Of a stretch of 64,000 nucleotides of DNA, positions 16,546-23,339 are shown in pieces. Every line of letters begins with the position of its first letter. The first letter of the stretch is position 1. This DNA is from Gordonibacter sp. An230 (lineage in GTDB: Bacteria; Actinomycetota; Coriobacteriia; Coriobacteriales; Eggerthellaceae), in NCBI RefSeq assembly GCF_002159915.1, contig NZ_NFJP01000006.1, positions 62,001-126,000 of the forward strand, in the 5' to 3' direction. The position numbers were made by a program, and so were the translations under genes. The notes beneath the pieces were generated by a model. It saw only the letters and a list, made by a program, of their open reading frames with translations. It made no database searches and was not told the DNA's origin.

Positions 16546-18396
16546 TCATCCGCCGCGCGCCTCCTCCCTCCGCCGCCTGATGTAGGCCCCATCGTCGAAG
16601 GGATCGGCGTGGAGCGCGCCGGGGCGGCCGGGGTCGATGGCCGCATACCGGGGGTGCTTCCCCAGGTCGTACTTCCTCGACTGGAAGTCGGCCGCCTTGA
16701 GCCTCACGATGCACATATCGGGCGGTATCCTGCCCACCTCCGCGGCGTCGATGAGGGCGCGCTGTATCAGCTGCTCCGACACGCCCGACGAGTTCGTGGC
16801 CGAGTAGGTCTTCGACCGGGAGTCGTGCTCGACGGTGGTGCTGCCTATCCCCTCGGAGATCATCTTGGTGGTCTTCTGCGACTTCCCGCCCAGGAACACC
16901 ATGCTGTCGCACCCGTCCACGATGGCGTCCTGCGCCTTCTCCTCGTAGTTCATCGCGAGCTGCCCGTAGGACTGCAGGATGATGACGAGGGAGATGCCGC
17001 GCGACCGGAGCGTGTTCACGAGCAGCTCCACGTCCGGTATGCGCCCGATGTTGGCGAACTCGTCGAGGTAGCATTGGATGGGTATGGGCAGCCTCCCTCC
17101 CTTGTCGCGATAGTCCGTGTCGGCTTTGCCCTTGTTCAGCTGGAAGAACTGCGACAACAGCATCGACGTGACGAACGAGAACGTCGAGTCGGAGTCGGGC
17201 ATCTGGAGGAAGAGCGCGCACCTGCGCTCCCCGAATTCGCTCAAGTCCAGCTCGTCGTCCGACATGAGGTCGCGCAGCTCGTCGTTGTCGAAGTCGGACA
17301 GGCGGCTGGCCACGGAGATGAGGATGGACTTCATGGTCTTTCCGGCCCCCAGCTTGAACTTGCGGTACATGCGGCACGGGTACGCGTTGGGATGGGGCTC
17401 GAGCGCCGGGTCGCGAACGAAGTCCCCCGCTGCGTCGCTCCACGCCTCCCCCGTCTCGTACTTGCGGAACATGTGGTCGAGCGGCGACATGTAGTCCTCG
17501 TCGTCCTCCTTGCACCTTGCGAGGTCCACCAGGTCTATCATGGAGGGGAAGGTGCGCTCCTCGGGGTTCACCGCGTACATGAGGTAGCCGATCACCGCGC
17601 GGAACAGGTTGCGCTCGGCCTTCGCCCAGAAGTCCTCCCTGGAGCGCTCTCCCGACCCCTCGGTGTTCTTCATGAGGACGTTCACGATGCGGCTTATGTC
17701 CGACTGGCACCTGCCGTCCCCCTCGGTTTCGGGGTCGGAAACGTAGGCGAACGGGTTGTACCGCATCGATCGGGCGAGGTCTATGAGGTTGACCACTTTG
17801 AGGTCGTAGCCCGCATCCAGAAGCATCTGGCCCACCTCCGGCAGGAGGGTCGCCTTGGGGTCGGTCACGAAGAAGCTCGCGTTGAGCTGGGCGAGGTTGG
17901 GCTTGACGATGTAGCGCGTCTTGCCCGTCCCCGGGCCTCCGATGACGAGCACGTTCTTATTGCAGTCCGTCTTGAGGTCGAACCTCTTGGGGCGGAGGGC
18001 TATGCGCTCGGTCGCGGACAGGATTATGTTGTTGTCGGGGTCCTCCGCGTCGGCGTAGGCGGCCGCCTCCTCGGGGGTCCCCCAGCGCGCCGACCCGTGC
18101 TCCACCCCCGGCATGAGGTTGCGCTCCCTCCTGCCGAGGACGGCCGCCGCGCCGAGGGCGAGGCCGAGCGCGCCCGCGGCCGCCGAGGGGGCCAGGGCCG
18201 TCGGGTCGGCGCTCCATGCGGACGGGTCCGCCAGCGCGCTGGGCAGATCGGCGATCGCCTGCGACAGCGCGAGCGGGTACGGCTGGGGGGACTGCGCGGC
18301 GGCCCACGCCAGCTTGTTGGCGACGAGCGCCGAGGCCGAGGCGGCCGCGCCCCCGGCCACGGCCGCCTCGGCGACCTTTCTCCGGGCGCCCCTCAT
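16546..18396 (-). CDS. virD4: VirD4/TraG-type coupling ATPase
   Basis: A 616-residue type IV coupling protein that brings the relaxase-DNA complex to the channel. Two N-terminal membrane spans are followed by GSARWGTPEEA, the P-loop VIGGPGTGKTRYIVKPN (about 150-166), the motif FFVTDPKATLLPE, and Walker B YLDEFANIG (about 441-449), then GGKSQKTTKMISE. All are hallmarks of TraG/VirD4 proteins. The start at 18396 overlaps the preceding DUF3801-like gene through ATGA, the usual PcfB-PcfC arrangement. An upstream extension of the reading frame exists but overlaps two well-supported genes in other frames and was rejected. Confidence 0.94.
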   Translation of the reverse strand: MRGARRKVAEAAVAGGAAASASALVANKLAWAAAQSPQPYPLALSQAIADLPSALADPSAWSADPTALAPSAAAGALGLALGAAAVLGRRERNLMPGVEHGSARWGTPEEAAAYADAEDPDNNIILSATERIALRPKRFDLKTDCNKNVLVIGGPGTGKTRYIVKPNLAQLNASFFVTDPKATLLPEVGQMLLDAGYDLKVVNLIDLARSMRYNPFAYVSDPETEGDGRCQSDISRIVNVLMKNTEGSGERSREDFWAKAERNLFRAVIGYLMYAVNPEERTFPSMIDLVDLARCKEDDEDYMSPLDHMFRKYETGEAWSDAAGDFVRDPALEPHPNAYPCRMYRKFKLGAGKTMKSILISVASRLSDFDNDELRDLMSDDELDLSEFGERRCALFLQMPDSDSTFSFVTSMLLSQFFQLNKGKADTDYRDKGGRLPIPIQCYLDEFANIGRIPDVELLVNTLRSRGISLVIILQSYGQLAMNYEEKAQDAIVDGCDSMVFLGGKSQKTTKMISEGIGSTTVEHDSRSKTYSATNSSGVSEQLIQRALIDAAEVGRIPPDMCIVRLKAADFQSRKYDLGKHPRYAAIDPGRPGALHADPFDDGAYIRRRREEARGG

Positions 18397-18938: not shown

Positions 18939-19985
18939 CTACGCGCCGATGCCCTCGGTCTCGATCTCCTCCATGCGGGCCGACGCCCTCTTTATCTCGT
19001 CCTCCAGGCGGGATGCCTTTTCGGCGCTCCCCCTCAGCTTCTCCCACCCCATCTCCGGGTAGAGGCGCCCGACCAGCTCCTTCAGCTCCCGGTACTCGGG
19101 GTTGCGGTCCATGAGCGCCCGCTCGAACCGCTCCCGCTCGGCCCTCCGCTCCTCCTCTGGCGACGGCCGCTTCCCCCTGCTCCGCTTGGGCGGGAGGTCG
19201 AAGGAGAGGCCGTCCGGCCTTGAGAGCCAGTTGTCGAGCCGCATGGCGTACCGGGCGGTCTCCGGGTTGTCCCGGCGGTACCTCGCCGTGTAGCGCCGAT
19301 AGCCCTCCTCGATCGTTTCGGGGGAGTACCCGCGCGCGAGGGCCCTCGCGTAGGCCGCGGCCACCTCCTCGAAGGAGGCGCGGCGGTTGATCGACGCCTC
19401 CATGAGGCGCTCCACGGCCTCCGCCGCCTTTTCCCCCACGGCCCTGCGCGTCTCCGCCGGGGATGGTTTGGACGGATGTCCATTTGACCCGCAACTTCCC
19501 TCCATCCTTTCGGAGCGACATTCCGTCGCCCGAGCGGCGGCCTCCCCGGACATTCCGTCGCCCGAAGCGCGACGTTCCGTCCGGCGGTCGGGCGACGTTT
19601 CGTCGGGCAGGGCCTCGCGCGACATTCCGTCGCCCGAGAGGGCGCGCGCCGCCGCCTCCGCGTCGAACGACCTGACCGCCTCGTCGATGCGGGCTTGGGA
19701 CACCTTGAAGCGGCGGGAGTCCCGGTTGTTGCCGAGGCGGTACCTGCCCACCTCGACGACGAGTCCGGACTCCGAGAGCGATTTGATGGCGCGCTGCACC
19801 TGGCGCACGGACACCTCGAAGGCGTGCGCGGCGGCCTCCTGCGTCTCGTAGTAGACGCCCGCCCCGCGCCTGCTGAACGCGTAGATGCGCGCGTAGAGGC
19901 ACAGCTCGACGCTGCCGAGCTTGAGGCCGAGGCCCGCCTTCGACCACATCCAGGCGTGCAGCGTCAGGTAGTCACGATCCCTCAC
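18939..19985 (-). CDS. Replication-initiator-like winged-helix protein
   Basis: A 348-residue DNA-binding protein. Residues about 10-95 form a winged-helix/HTH domain (LKLGSVELCLYARIYAFSR, then QEAAAHAFEVSVRQVQRAIK, then ESGLVVEVGRY) like the HTH_36-type N-termini of plasmid and ICE replication initiators. The middle (about 115-170) is low complexity and contains the iteron-like DNA repeats described separately. The C-terminal part (about 185-345) is helical, with EEGYRRYTARYRRDNPET and an RGKRPSPEEERR linker. The start is a GTG at 19983-19985, overlapping the upstream HTH gene by 14 bp. Location before the conjugation genes suggests it maintains or replicates the excised element; this is inference. 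Confidence 0.7.
   Translation of the reverse strand: MRDRDYLTLHAWMWSKAGLGLKLGSVELCLYARIYAFSRRGAGVYYETQEAAAHAFEVSVRQVQRAIKSLSESGLVVEVGRYRLGNNRDSRRFKVSQARIDEAVRSFDAEAAARALSGDGMSREALPDETSPDRRTERRASGDGMSGEAAARATECRSERMEGSCGSNGHPSKPSPAETRRAVGEKAAEAVERLMEASINRRASFEEVAAAYARALARGYSPETIEEGYRRYTARYRRDNPETARYAMRLDNWLSRPDGLSFDLPPKRSRGKRPSPEEERRAERERFERALMDRNPEYRELKELVGRLYPEMGWEKLRGSAEKASRLEDEIKRASARMEEIETEGIGA
19517..19637. repeat. Iteron-like repeats inside the replication gene
   Basis: Three exact copies of GACATTCCGTCGCCCGA (19517-19533, 19549-19565, 19621-19637) and two degenerate copies (19571-19587, 19594-19610) lie in 121 bp. Start-to-start spacings are 32, 22, 23 and 27 bp, so the copies fall in different codon frames of the overlapping gene. 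The repeat is therefore conserved as DNA, not as protein. Regularly spaced short repeats next to a putative initiator gene are typical of initiator-binding iterons. Confidence 0.65.
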
Positions 19986-20193
19986 GGCCGTCGCCGTCCG
20001 TCGGAGGGTTCACGAGGCAGAAGTTCCGCTTTATCCAGTCCCACAGGTCGCGCTCGGACACGCGCAGGATCTTGGGGTGCAGGGGGTCGTAGGCGAAGGG
20101 GATGGGGTCGATGTGCCGGTTGCAGTACTCGCTGAACACCGTCGTTCCGACCCCGAGCACGTCTTTCGCCTGCTGTTTCGTGAGCATCTTCAT
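19972..20193 (-). CDS. Small HTH/DNA-binding protein of the element
   Basis: A 73-residue protein: MKMLTKQQAKDVLGVGTTVF at the start, then an aromatic centre (YCNRHIDPIPFAYDPLHPK) and DLWDWIKRNF near the end. It looks like a helix-turn-helix protein of the excisionase or AlpA type, in which a first helix pair reads DNA and a wing follows. The start at 20193 has GTAGGAGG about 7 bases upstream and overlaps the upstream HTH gene (stop 20190) by ATGA. It heads directly into the replication gene. Likely role: control of element genes or excision; not proven. Confidence 0.72.
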   Translation of the reverse strand: MKMLTKQQAKDVLGVGTTVFSEYCNRHIDPIPFAYDPLHPKILRVSERDLWDWIKRNFCLVNPPTDGDGREGS

Positions 20194-20444
20194 GAGCGTC
20201 CTCCTACGTTCGGAGCATGCCCGCGGGCATCCTCGGTTTTCCCCTGCATTGCGCAGAGGTCCTCTATCAGCCACTGCTTTGGGATGCGAATGAGCTTCCC
20301 GACTCGCAGGTGCCTCACTTGGGAGCGGCAAAGGGACCGCATCGAGTTGTCGGATATGCAGAGGGCTTTCGCCGCCAAGGCGGGGTCGAGCATGTCCGGC
20401 ATGTCCGAGAAGACCGCGCGCAGGTCGCGCATGCCTGCCCTCAT
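20190..20444 (-). CDS. Small HTH protein of the element (second of three)
   Basis: An 84-residue protein with the pattern LDPALAAKALCISDNSMRSL (a first HTH helix pair) followed by HLRVGKLIRIPKQWLIEDL, the typical basic wing of MerR-like excisionases (VGKLIRIPK resembles the common VGRRWRIPK). It overlaps the neighbouring HTH genes by four bases on both sides, so the three small genes are one translational unit. Start at 20444; an internal ATG four codons later is an alternative. Predicted DNA-binding protein; the target sites could be the palindromes at 20853-20935. Confidence 0.75.
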   Translation of the reverse strand: MRAGMRDLRAVFSDMPDMLDPALAAKALCISDNSMRSLCRSQVRHLRVGKLIRIPKQWLIEDLCAMQGKTEDARGHAPNVGGRS

Positions 20445-20674
20445 CGCCGCCCCGCCCTGTCCCGGCGCCCCACGTAGTCGATGCGCTCGACGCCGCCCCG
20501 TTCGATGAGCGCGGCGACCGACGCCTTGGGTATCCTCCACGCCGTGCCGATCTTCATCGCGTGCTCGAATTCCCCCGACCTGCACATGAACCGGATAGTG
20601 CGCTCGCATATCTGGAGGGCGGAGGAAACCTGCTTGGGGGTGAGCATGGGCGGGTACCCTTCCAGGTAGGCCAT
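20441..20674 (-). CDS. Excisionase-like HTH protein (first of three)
   Basis: A 77-residue protein with LTPKQVSSALQICERTIRFM, a short linker and HAMKIGTAWRIPKASVAALI, the classic excisionase/MerR-like HTH plus wing. I chose the ATG at 20674, with a GGGAG site upstream, over an in-frame ATG at 20725. It is the first gene of the minus-strand element operon and is transcribed away from the palindromic region at 20853-20935, with the integrase on the other side. That layout suits a recombination directionality factor or operon repressor. Which of the three HTH proteins acts as Xis cannot be told from sequence. Confidence 0.75.
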   Translation of the reverse strand: MAYLEGYPPMLTPKQVSSALQICERTIRFMCRSGEFEHAMKIGTAWRIPKASVAALIERGGVERIDYVGRRDRAGRR

Positions 20675-20852
20675 GCAGGGGCTCCCGGCGGTCTCCGGGC
20701 GCGCGGCCCTCCCTCCCGTCCTCACGGCCGCCCCCTTTTCCCGGGCGGCGCGGCGGGCGGCCTTGGGCGGCTTGCCCTCTCTCGCTCGTCAATCATAGTG
20801 GCCTCCGTTCTTCGATGACCTCCCCGCTTTCCTTGCCATAGTGTGGCTTAAA

Positions 20853-20935
20853 ATAAATACGCTATAAATTATGTTTTTAAGCGTATTTATCTTGATTTAT
20901 CGTGGTGGCACGCTATTAATTAGATTTAATAGCGT
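20853..20935. promoter_or_regulatory. Divergent AT-rich control region with two palindromic operators
   Basis: An AT-rich island in otherwise GC-rich DNA between the minus-strand HTH operon and the plus-strand zinc-finger/integrase genes. Palindrome 1 has perfect 11-bp arms ATAAATACGCT (20853-20863) and AGCGTATTTAT (20880-20890). Palindrome 2 covers 20910-20935 with arms ACGCTATTAA and TTTAATAGCGT. Both share the core ACGCTAT/ATAGCGT. A plus-strand promoter fits: TTGATT (20892-20897), 16 bp, TATTAA (20914-20919), the -10 lying inside palindrome 2. A repressor at that site would block the promoter. Confidence 0.65.
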
Positions 20936-20950
20936 ATCGAAGGAGAGAAA

Positions 20951-21973
20951 ATGCTCGCAAAAGATGACTTTACGGGCGAAATAGGGGGGTTCGAACTCTC
21001 GATACCTGCGGGGGGCTCCGATCTCCTTTTCAGGCCGAGCGCCGTTGCGGCGCCCCCTCGCCCCCTCGCCCCCTCGCCCTTGTTCTACGAGTTCGGCAAC
21101 CTGTCGGACGACGACGAGGTGGTGGCCTTCGCGGCCGTCCACGGCCCTCTGTTTGGTACGAGGGGGTGGGTCCCCGAGGACGGGGCCATACGGGAGAGCG
21201 TCGAAGACTGGAAGGAGGCGGCGAGCGCCCTGAACCACGTCCTAAGGCTCAAGGCGTTCTGCGACGGGAAGGCGGGCGTCGGAGACGTGTCCGACTTCAT
21301 GCACGTGGTGGTCGCGATGGGGGCGAGGGGCTTTTCCCTGACGGCCTCCTGCTCCCTTTTCTCCGGCAGGAGTGAGGGCGCGTACCGCGACCTCGTTCGG
21401 TCCTCGCACGTCGGCGAGAGCTACCAGGGGGCGGGCGGCGAGCGCGTCGTGGCCGGGCTTTCCGTGGACCCCTTGGGCGCCCACGTGGCGGCCACGTATG
21501 AAACCTTCGACTACTATCCGGCCTCTCCCCAAAGCGGGCAGGACCGCTCATTCATTGACGCCTTGGCCTCAGAGGGCTTTCCCGGCGACATGGCCGAGGA
21601 GTGCGCCCACGCGGTCGTGAGGCTGTGCACGATGGCCCACACCTCCGACGTCCGGTTCGGATTCGTCGACGGCGTGTACGGGCCTGTGGTCGAATGCCTC
21701 CTCGCAGGGATATGGCACGAGTTCGGCCAAGCGTACTCCCACGAGGCGATCGGGGTGTGCAAGGAGTGCGGCCGGGTCATGGACTGCACGAACGAGCGGG
21801 GGAAGCAGAAGGACTACTGCTCGAAGGCGTGCAGGGACAGGGCCCGAAACAAGAGGAACGCCCCGAAGATGAAGCTGAGGCGCCGCATGGCCGCGGGGAT
21901 GACCGTGGAGGAGGCGGCTCGGGACAGCGGGGTCCCGATCGACGAGGCGAAGCGCCTTGTGGGGGTGGAGTGA
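20951..21973 (+). CDS. Zinc-finger protein encoded upstream of the integrase
   Basis: A 340-residue cytoplasmic protein. The first 250 residues are an unrecognised alpha/beta region. At about 270-310 lies a four-cysteine zinc finger, CKECGRVMDC followed by YCSKACRDRARNKR, similar to the C-terminal finger of CGNR-type regulators. The last 45 residues (MAAGMTVEEAARDSGVPIDE) look like an HTH. The start at 20951 has AAGGAGAG at good spacing, and the gene is driven from the palindromic region just upstream. It precedes the integrase by 43 bp, so the two probably share a transcript. A DNA-binding regulator of integration or excision is the natural guess; the exact function is unknown. Confidence 0.75.
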   Translation: MLAKDDFTGEIGGFELSIPAGGSDLLFRPSAVAAPPRPLAPSPLFYEFGNLSDDDEVVAFAAVHGPLFGTRGWVPEDGAIRESVEDWKEAASALNHVLRLKAFCDGKAGVGDVSDFMHVVVAMGARGFSLTASCSLFSGRSEGAYRDLVRSSHVGESYQGAGGERVVAGLSVDPLGAHVAATYETFDYYPASPQSGQDRSFIDALASEGFPGDMAEECAHAVVRLCTMAHTSDVRFGFVDGVYGPVVECLLAGIWHEFGQAYSHEAIGVCKECGRVMDCTNERGKQKDYCSKACRDRARNKRNAPKMKLRRRMAAGMTVEEAARDSGVPIDEAKRLVGVE

Positions 21974-22016: not shown

Positions 22017-23339
22017 ATGGCGTACGTGGTCATAGGCGAGGGAACCGGCGAGTTCCGTGGAAAGAGCTCCTTTCGCGGCGAGTTCATCGTGCTCGACACC
22101 AAGACCGGGAAGACCGAAAAGATTCGCGAGACGATGAAGGTGTCCTCCAGGACGAAGGCGGAGAGAGGCCGCTGCCTCCGGGAGCTTCGCGAGAGGATCG
22201 AGGGCTCGGCCCGCTACGACGCCCGCAACACGACGGTGCGGCAGCTTTGCGACGAGTGGATGGGCTACCGGGCCAAGGACGAGGATGTGGCGGCGGGGAC
22301 GCTGCGCAAGGACAAGTCGCTCGTCGACAACATCTGCCTCCACCTCGGCGACATGCGCGTGTCCGAGGTGCGGCCCTACGACATCAAGGACATGCTCTCC
22401 AAGCTCGCCGCAGGGGAGACGGTCAGCGGCAGGCCCGCCTCCGGGACGCGCCGGGCCGACGTGTTCGTGAAGGCGAACCAGGTGTTCGAGGACGCGGTGA
22501 TCAACGAGGTCATCGTGAAGAACCCCTGCAAAGGGGTCAAAAGGCCCAAGAACGATACGCAGGAGAGGTCCTTCCTCTCCTTCGAGCAGGTGCGCCTCAT
22601 GCTGGCGCTGGCCGATGCGCTGCCCGTCGGCTCCCCGTCCATCGGGTTCTACCTCGCCCTGCTCGCAGGGCTCAGGCGGGGCGAGATATGCGCGCTGCGG
22701 TGGAAGAACGTGGACTTCGACAAGGGCGTCATCCACGTCGAGAACAGCTACAGCTCCGACACTCTCTCGCTTGAGAAACCCAAGGGGGGCAGGGAGAGAA
22801 GGCTGTTCGCCCCCTCCTTCCTCATGGAGATGCTGAAGGAGTGGAAGGGACGCCAAGCGCGGCTCCTCCGGCTGACGCTCGGCATCGAGCAGGGGCCGGA
22901 CACCCCGGTGGTCTCGTCCCAGAAGGGCGGCTTCACGCATCCCGACAACCTGAGGCGGTCCTGGGGGCGGTTCGCCGCACGCCACGGGATGGGGGCCTAC
23001 ACGCTGCACGAGCTGCGCCACACCTACGCCACCATCCTGTTCGCCCTCAACGCCGACCTGAAGGCGGTGCAGAACAACATGGGGCACCTGCGGATGGCGA
23101 CGACGATGGAGATATACGTCCACTACGTCGAGGCCAAGGGCGAGGAGGCGGCCGGGGTCCTCGACGCCCTCGCCAGGAGCCTGGGGAGCGGGTCGTCCTT
23201 CGGGGAGACGGCGCGCGCGGGCGGGGCGCCCGGCCCCGCCGCCCTCGGGGAGGGGCCGTCCCTCGGGGCGGTCGCGTCGGCCGGGGAGGCGGCGATCGCC
23301 CTTCCGGGCGGGGCCGCCCTGCTGGAGAAGGCCGTGTGA
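22017..23339 (+). CDS. int: Tyrosine recombinase (ICE integrase)
   Basis: A 440-residue site-specific recombinase. An N-terminal arm-binding region (about 1-60) and a core-binding SAM-like domain (about 70-165) precede the catalytic domain. Catalytic signatures are GLRRGEICALRW (first Arg, about 219), HELRHTYAT (His-x-x-Arg, about 330), the GH in NMGHLRMATT, and the nucleophile region MEIYVHYV (about 366-370). The last 60 residues are a Gly/Ala-rich tail. It starts at 22017 after GAGGAGGTGG. It is transcribed away from the conjugation genes, toward the right end of the element; the likely attachment site is the tRNA-Leu fragment about 4.1 kb away. A second integrase may once have belonged to the intervening segment. 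Confidence 0.95.
   Translation: MAYVVIGEGTGEFRGKSSFRGEFIVLDTKTGKTEKIRETMKVSSRTKAERGRCLRELRERIEGSARYDARNTTVRQLCDEWMGYRAKDEDVAAGTLRKDKSLVDNICLHLGDMRVSEVRPYDIKDMLSKLAAGETVSGRPASGTRRADVFVKANQVFEDAVINEVIVKNPCKGVKRPKNDTQERSFLSFEQVRLMLALADALPVGSPSIGFYLALLAGLRRGEICALRWKNVDFDKGVIHVENSYSSDTLSLEKPKGGRERRLFAPSFLMEMLKEWKGRQARLLRLTLGIEQGPDTPVVSSQKGGFTHPDNLRRSWGRFAARHGMGAYTLHELRHTYATILFALNADLKAVQNNMGHLRMATTMEIYVHYVEAKGEEAAGVLDALARSLGSGSSFGETARAGGAPGPAALGEGPSLGAVASAGEAAIALPGGAALLEKAV

Follow-up and report, generated by a model that had tools for sequence, protein, structure and literature searches.

A probable lambda-O-type replication origin within its own initiator gene on a putative integrative conjugative element

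Why should a replication initiator gene carry, inside its own coding sequence, a set of repeats that appear to be kept as DNA? The gene that raises this question, rep, lies in the window, by which we mean the whole 64-kb stretch of DNA analysed here. We examined the repeats themselves, their counterparts in related initiator genes, the sequence and genes that adjoin them, and their likeness to known origins.

Five dyads in the linker-coding sequence of rep

The rep product matched the phrog_270 profile ("replication initiation protein") with an E-value of 3.7e-14 over residues 6-326 (positions 32-314 of the 383 in the profile) and the O-like initiator profiles phrog_391 and phrog_678 with E-values of 2e-5 and 4e-5, respectively; its matches in Pfam were weak HTH matches, all below the cut-off. 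An AlphaFold2 model, which was built from 36 aligned sequences, divides the protein into a winged-helix DNA-binding domain, a disordered linker and a helical C-terminal domain (Table 1), with the recognition helix of the first spanning residues 60-72 and including Arg65. Fold comparison of the winged-helix domain returned mostly general winged helices, with MarR-type regulators among the best matches. With regard to a DnaD-like or RepA_N fold, the entries 2vn2 (Z 7.5 over 96 residues, rmsd 3.9) and 5kbj (Z 7.5 over 108 residues, rmsd 4.2) were middling matches tied with many regulators; such structure-search rows, being mostly general winged helices, exclude no family. For the C-terminal domain, the structure searches gave no fold match, and the best E-value of its profile against the PDB was 0.13. 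This domain is also found behind another N-terminal type: the proteins at L127:1026-2489 and L135 join a different N-terminal part to the same C-terminal domain, and DNA repeats lie in their linkers too. No close relative of rep was found in the genome contigs, plasmids, phages and viral contigs searched, so the window array stands without a close comparison; the best matches in the order share 32-47% identity over parts of the protein. A search of plasmids with a short family member gave weak matches only, in three records.

Table 1. Features of rep, its repeat array and the surrounding mobile element (positions are those of the window; iterons are numbered in gene order).
Feature	Position	Strand	Basis or remark
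rep, replication initiator gene	18939..19985	-	348 aa, GTG start; ORF list, phrog_270 match
Winged-helix DNA-binding domain, residues 1-116	19638..19985	-	AlphaFold2, most 10-residue blocks >90
Linker, residues 117-175, holds the array	19461..19637	-	AlphaFold2, residues 123-170 with pLDDT < 50
Helical C-terminal domain, residues 175-348	18942..19463	-	AlphaFold2; family comparison
Iteron 1	19621..19631		GAC-N5-GTC, codon phase 0
Iteron 2	19594..19604		GAC-N5-GTC, codon phase 0
Iteron 3	19571..19581		GAC-N5-GTC, codon phase 2
Iteron 4	19549..19559		GAC-N5-GTC, codon phase 0
Iteron 5	19517..19527		GAC-N5-GTC, codon phase 2
Candidate unwinding element, weak	19466..19516		3' of the array; lowest-GC stretch of the gene
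VirD4/TraG-type coupling protein	16546..18387	-	T4SS-DNA_transf E=2e-51; start chosen by the analyst
Small HTH_17-like gene, upstream, same direction	19972..20193	-	E=0.0028, below cut-off; start chosen by the analyst
Excisionase-like HTH_17 gene	20441..20725	-	HTH_17 E=1.5e-12; excisionase model E=1.1e-5, below cut-off
Tyrosine integrase	22017..23339	+	Phage_integrase E=1.1e-22

The original prediction, made from the sequence of the window, described five copies of a 17-bp motif, three of them exact. Five repeats are indeed present, and the 17-mer GACATTCCGTCGCCCGA occurs exactly at 19517, 19549 and 19621; these are its sole exact copies in the genome, where two more places match it with two mismatches. 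However, the copies at 19571 and 19594 depart from the 17-mer at five and six positions, respectively, so the unit shared by all five is an 11-bp core and not 17 bp. This core, GACRTTYCGTC, is exact at all five plus-strand positions (19517, 19549, 19571, 19594 and 19621) and has no sixth copy in the window, in which nine matches were found against 6.0 expected when up to one mismatch was allowed. Read on the coding strand, the core has the form GACGGAATGTC or a variant of it, and all five cores contain the inverted repeat GAC-N5-GTC. The repeats cover codons 119-157, with the first one at the edge of the low-pLDDT stretch of the linker (residues 123-170).

As had been claimed, the copies fall in different codon frames: from 19517 to 19621 the phases are 2, 0, 2, 0 and 0, that is, two phases are used. 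Synonymous shuffles that preserved the protein and the codon usage placed at least five GAC-N5-GTC in the linker in 13 of 20,000 cases (mean 2.3) and never produced three identical 17-mers (0 of 4,000); a looser test, asking for five copies of an 11-mer within 125 bp with up to two mismatches each, was reached in 3 of 300 shuffles. The repeats might instead have arisen at the peptide level, through duplication of a linker segment that was kept for the protein. Three of the five copies do lie in one and the same phase, where they code for either DGMS or DETS, and SGDGMS is encoded twice in one frame within the array. Such a peptide can account for part of the repeat signal, but hardly for the whole array.

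The surroundings of rep suggest a mobile element. Genes for a tyrosine integrase and a coupling protein are both located in the window, a PrgI-family gene and a helicase gene lie further to the left of the rep neighbourhood, and a relaxase match lies some 62 kb off, still within this contig. No att repeats were found between 2.2 kb 3' of the integrase gene and about 80 kb leftward, the longest exact match being 14 bp. The rep operon is separated from a divergent gene (20951-21973) by an AT-rich gap that holds two 28-bp boxes (20859-20886 and 20910-20937), which are 79% identical, lie 51 bp apart and both carry the inverted arms ACGCTAT..AGCGT; they are likely operators. The 340-aa product of the divergent gene matched no Pfam family and no PADLOC defence model. 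By eye, its C-terminus is Cys-rich and HTH-like, so it is perhaps a regulator.

Repeated dyads across the initiator family

Matches to the full protein turned up in 66 of 297 genomes of the same order (its own genome included), which judging by gene content probably belongs to the Coriobacteriia; with a profile of the winged-helix domain and a threshold of E<=1e-8, matches were obtained in 76 of 395 genomes from this order. Across the phylum, this profile matched 2 of 246 genomes at E<=1e-6, namely, its own genome and one of the same family. The loci were those from the protein and domain-profile searches, plus 54 regions selected from order-wide profile rows that came without a locus. Grouping the 119 domain hits at a threshold of 88% DNA identity gave 50 clusters, one of which contains the window. 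The loci were chosen by the analyst, with apparent duplicates and contig-end fragments omitted, and a truncated row (L114) was removed from the alignment and the tree, leaving 49 rows. A second family member, L056 (G000:C15), is located on another contig of the same genome; its 3.3-kb locus contains no GAC-N5-GTC, and it would therefore not share sites with the window initiator. Another member, L117, is flanked by an SSB gene on one side and a DnaC-like gene on the other; what looks by eye like a dUTPase-like protein is encoded further on, and the locus is probably a prophage replication module.

The original prediction would have been contradicted by homologous genes with no repeats, but the repeats recur among these homologues at the same place. 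Within -100 to +200 bp of the end of the winged-helix domain, the 50 clusters contained 83 GAC-N5-GTC, with at least one in 29 clusters, compared with 1-11 for each of the 15 other gaps (0-4 and 6-15) in the same interval and 1-7 GAC-N5-GTC in each of seven other 300-bp bins; in the first 28 distinct genes, gap 5 gave 31 and the other 15 gaps gave 3-13. Among the 21 clusters without GAC-N5-GTC in the interval, 10 had another repeated dyad by an automatic rule (the same 4-mer half-site, with a gap of 5 or 6, at least twice), and 11 of the 50 clusters had neither by these rules; the repeated dyad of L098 is probably spurious. Such a general dyad was present in 31 of 49 array regions versus 47 of 710 control windows from the same loci, and at least three times in 22 of 49 versus 1 of 710. 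A half-site-blind statistic pointed in the same direction (p=3e-24, with windows of related loci not being independent). The other dyads include GTGAA-N5-TTCAC (L093 and L104), TGCA-N5-TGCA (L119), GTAC-N6-GTAC (L118), TGAC-N6-GTCA (L120) and CCTC-N5-GAGG (L121), among others.

These arrays keep their position whether they are coding or lie past the stop codon, and spacings of 33 followed by 22 or 23 recur in both kinds alike. Of 82 GAC sites between -20 and +260 bp, 59 are within the reading frame and 23 are at or past the stop, and among the 15 clusters that have at least two in-frame sites, 12 spread them over more than one codon phase. Because of these two results, we reject protein-level selection as the sole cause, in agreement with the original prediction. 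Together with the synonymous shuffles, the non-coding arrays and multi-phase clusters rule out a peptide repeat as the only explanation, and a duplicated linker segment retains next to no probability in our view.

Over the family, the site consensus is YGACRNNNYGTCR. Beyond GAC, the arms show Watson-Crick pairing at 217 of 492 pairs, compared with 164 +/- 9 in shuffles, and the sites are often spaced by 21-23 and 31-33 bp, with spacings of 13, 15, 18, 27 and 42 also occurring. Helical phasing was dropped as a proof (vector strength about 0.39), since the copies are not independent and off-phase spacings occur. Paired arms could also act in RNA: a dyad whose arms are 5 nt apart would be able to fold, long arms are seen at two sites of L029, and the array might be a series of hairpins in the rep transcript. 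However, G/T arm pairs, which RNA tolerates, numbered 18, against 24.5 +/- 3.6 in shuffles, while Watson-Crick pairs were enriched, which argues weakly against hairpins, as do the many spacings in the ranges 21-23 and 31-33 bp. That A/C pairs outnumber G/T pairs (62 to 18) is uninformative here, because base composition gives 69 to 24.5. On balance, we regard RNA hairpins as very improbable.

The half-sites vary together with residue 65 of the winged-helix domain. Arg occupies this position in all 22 clusters with two or more GAC and in none of the six that lack GAC and have at least two GAA; L016 and L017, which have Lys at 65 together with three GAA and one GAC each, are outside both classes. 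When half-sites were assigned automatically by the stricter of two counts, they agreed with residue 65 in 28 of 29 clusters (21/0/1/7, p=5e-6, 29 of 49 rows counted). The looser automatic count gave 18/2/2/6 (p=0.0018, leaving out 17 of 49 rows in which no one base came out on top and 4 rows with T or G). The tree places just three to four switches behind the Arg65 association. Two of three independent pairs agree and one does not differ, and with three pairs only a sign test cannot reach significance. In its insignificant alignment, lambda O has Glu at position 65 and the inner base C, which runs against the Arg65 rule outside the family. Taken together, these limits weaken the rule.

This covariation also bears on a different kind of site. 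Inverted-repeat arrays also mark parS-type sites, and other small HTH genes are adjacent to rep, as one might see if the array were centromere-like, serving partition or incompatibility and bound by Rep or another protein of the element. Against this stand the tracking of the array with the winged-helix domain across the family, the agreement between half-site and residue 65 in 28 of 29 clusters, and the loader neighbour described below; centromere-like sites thus appear to us a slim prospect.

Helicase-loader genes, low GC and the likely function of the array

Five genes downstream of family members were examined in Pfam, and all five encode IstB/DnaC-like AAA+ proteins. By a profile of these five genes, a loader gene adjoins 33 of the 36 short (winged-helix-only) members and 3 of the 14 long ones; these counts include training genes (4 of the 33 and 1 of the 3), L098 (one of the 33) has fragments only, and two long members have too little downstream sequence. 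The family therefore exists in two forms. In the split form, a winged-helix protein is accompanied by a loader; in the long form, of which the window protein is an example, the initiator has a C-terminal part of its own. In several short relatives, the array is located between the winged-helix gene and the loader gene.

The last repeat of the window ends at gene offset 469, and the lowest-GC stretch of rep comes directly after it: the lowest-GC 40-bp windows of the gene start at offsets 463-480 with 52.5% GC, against 70.2% for the gene. Over -800 to +700 bp of this locus, however, GC reaches its minimum (0.50 in a 40-bp window) upstream of the domain end, at -528. In the family, scanning a 1.5-kb stretch per cluster in 40-bp windows placed the lowest-GC window between 0 and 300 bp 3' of the domain in 39 of 50 clusters, whereas about 10 were expected by sequence share; by ORF type, this was so for 31 of 36 short members and for 8 of 14 long ones. 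For the 22 clusters with two or more sites, mean GC was 0.46 and 0.40 in the two 20-bp steps past the last site and 0.60-0.73 elsewhere. Since DNA between genes is often rich in AT, a fall in GC past the end of short genes could be trivial; this is countered by the 13 of these 22 clusters in which GC after the array is equally low inside the frame or within 10 bp of the stop (mean 0.43, as in the nine clusters past it). The motif CC[AG]A[TA]AN[GC]AAA, written post hoc with the sequences already seen, occurs 18 times in 15 kb of post-array sequence, spread over 16 of 50 clusters, compared with a single occurrence in 215 kb elsewhere, and has no match in the post-array region of the window. L091, L105, L085 and others carry direct RATARSAAAGG-like units about 15 bp apart, 3' of the iterons, which could be a single-strand or DnaA-type binding element.

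Given the weakness of the low-GC stretch in the window, its lack of the AT motif and the failure to find a close relative, the window copy might be a decayed or inactive origin in a family whose other members are active. Nevertheless, its 348-aa frame is open, three 17-mers are identical, and five exact cores are distributed over two phases; decay therefore seems unlikely to us, if less so than hairpins or centromere-like sites.

We consider it likely that the array represents the initiator-binding iterons of a lambda-O-type replication origin that lies within rep itself, on an integrative conjugative element; over the family, such an origin would be located either inside the sequence coding for the DNA-binding domain or directly 3' of it. 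In the proposed mechanism, the winged-helix domain, as a dimer, would bind the GAC-N5-GTC dyads in the sequence coding for its own linker, and assembly on the array would open the AT-richer stretch directly 3'. The replicative helicase would then be brought in by the C-terminal domain or, in short relatives, by the separate DnaC/IstB-like AAA+ protein, and the origin would serve replication of the excised element. The original prediction had proposed an origin or an autoregulatory site within the initiator gene, which is supported by the family arrays, the low GC after the array and the loader neighbours. Between the two, an origin is favoured over a purely autoregulatory site because low GC follows the array and a loader gene adjoins most short members. 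Under pure autoregulation, there would be no origin in rep, and binding of the protein there would serve to block transcription or to control copy number. Winged-helix proteins are often repressors, the best fold matches include MarR-type regulators, and an array between winged-helix and loader genes, as in several short relatives, would suit such a role; on the other hand, the sites are 3' of the domain and not at a promoter, the profile matches are replication initiators, and neither the low GC nor the adjacent loader gene fits. We therefore judge autoregulation alone improbable, although slightly less so than a decayed origin. Autoregulation could still accompany origin function.

A broader interpretation is possible, and we offer it tentatively, as somewhat short of an even bet. 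The winged-helix domain, its own dyad array and the AT element may form one evolving, portable origin-recognition cassette in mobile elements found in this order. The cassette would work with a C-terminal domain fused to it in some members and with a separate DnaC-like loader in others, with specificity switching with residue 65 and the RATARSAAAGG-like units acting as an unwinding or single-strand-binding element. If true, Arg65 would specify the inner base C (GAC) and other residues the inner base A (GAA, GCA). The origin reading itself predicts a pairing between initiator and sites, for which the family provides dozens of natural pairs, some with changed half-sites, for co-evolution tests, and it would place the start of replication within a few hundred bases for a whole group of mobile elements.

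Comparison with known replication systems

The closest anatomical likeness is to phage lambda, in which, according to PMC5043065 and PMC7466680, ori sits in the O gene, O dimers bind inverted repeats and the adjoining AT-rich region opens. Measured in the same way, lambda O has four annotated iterons at gene offsets 348-432 in phases 0, 2, 2 and 1, and the window repeats lie at 354-469 inside their initiator gene. Lambda iteron 1 (TCCCTC-N5-GAGGGA) also has a 5-bp gap between its arms, and the lowest GC of O is at offset 435, directly 3' of the iterons; in the window, the lowest GC of the gene follows the array too, but at 52.5%. The lambda-O-type layout, with dyad iterons in the initiator gene 3' of the DNA-binding domain, is thus present here. 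The iteron sequences differ, however, and lambda is a phage, whereas rep belongs to a conjugative element with a coupling protein; no relatives of rep were found in phage records. Alignment of both rep domains to lambda O by hhalign was not significant, and phrog_277 (the lambda O family), which lambda O itself matches at 1.2e-152, was absent among the rep matches at E<=0.01. The weaker profiles phrog_391, phrog_678 and phrog_345 are common to rep and lambda O. The window protein does match phrog_270, but this entry tells nothing of an origin.

A second likeness is to RepA_N plasmids. The structure-search rows included the Rep entries 5kbj, 4pt7 and 4pql, which we take to be RepA_N-family Reps, and the rep product had no match to Pfam RepA_N at E<=0.05. 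In pSK41, the winged-helix N-terminal domain of the RepA_N initiator binds four boxes in the middle of rep, and the ori codes for a linker whose deletion the protein tolerates (PMC5703833); these boxes, like the window array, lie mid-rep in linker-coding sequence.

Among integrated elements, AICEs (actinomycete ICEs) are alike in carrying their own initiator, with which they replicate after excision (PMC3218068). They differ in using RepSA, RepAM or Prim-Pol and FtsK-type transfer, whereas the element here has a VirD4-type coupling protein. PMC3218068 reports no AICE in Coriobacteridae and lists no Pfam model for RepSA; for RepAM (DUF3631) and Prim-Pol, the initiator had no Pfam match. Our results suggest that these conjugative elements may replicate through an iteron initiator and helicase loading, unlike ICEBs1, which is described as replicating via its relaxase and oriT (PMC4489591). 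Among the literature matches listed, judged by title and the opening of the abstract, none described such an origin in Eggerthella-type elements. Judged by its anatomy, the putative origin resembles those of lambda O and the RepA_N plasmids, yet the initiator, by its profile matches, appears to be a member of neither family. The layout itself is known from these two systems, while the lineage and the conjugative-element setting look new.
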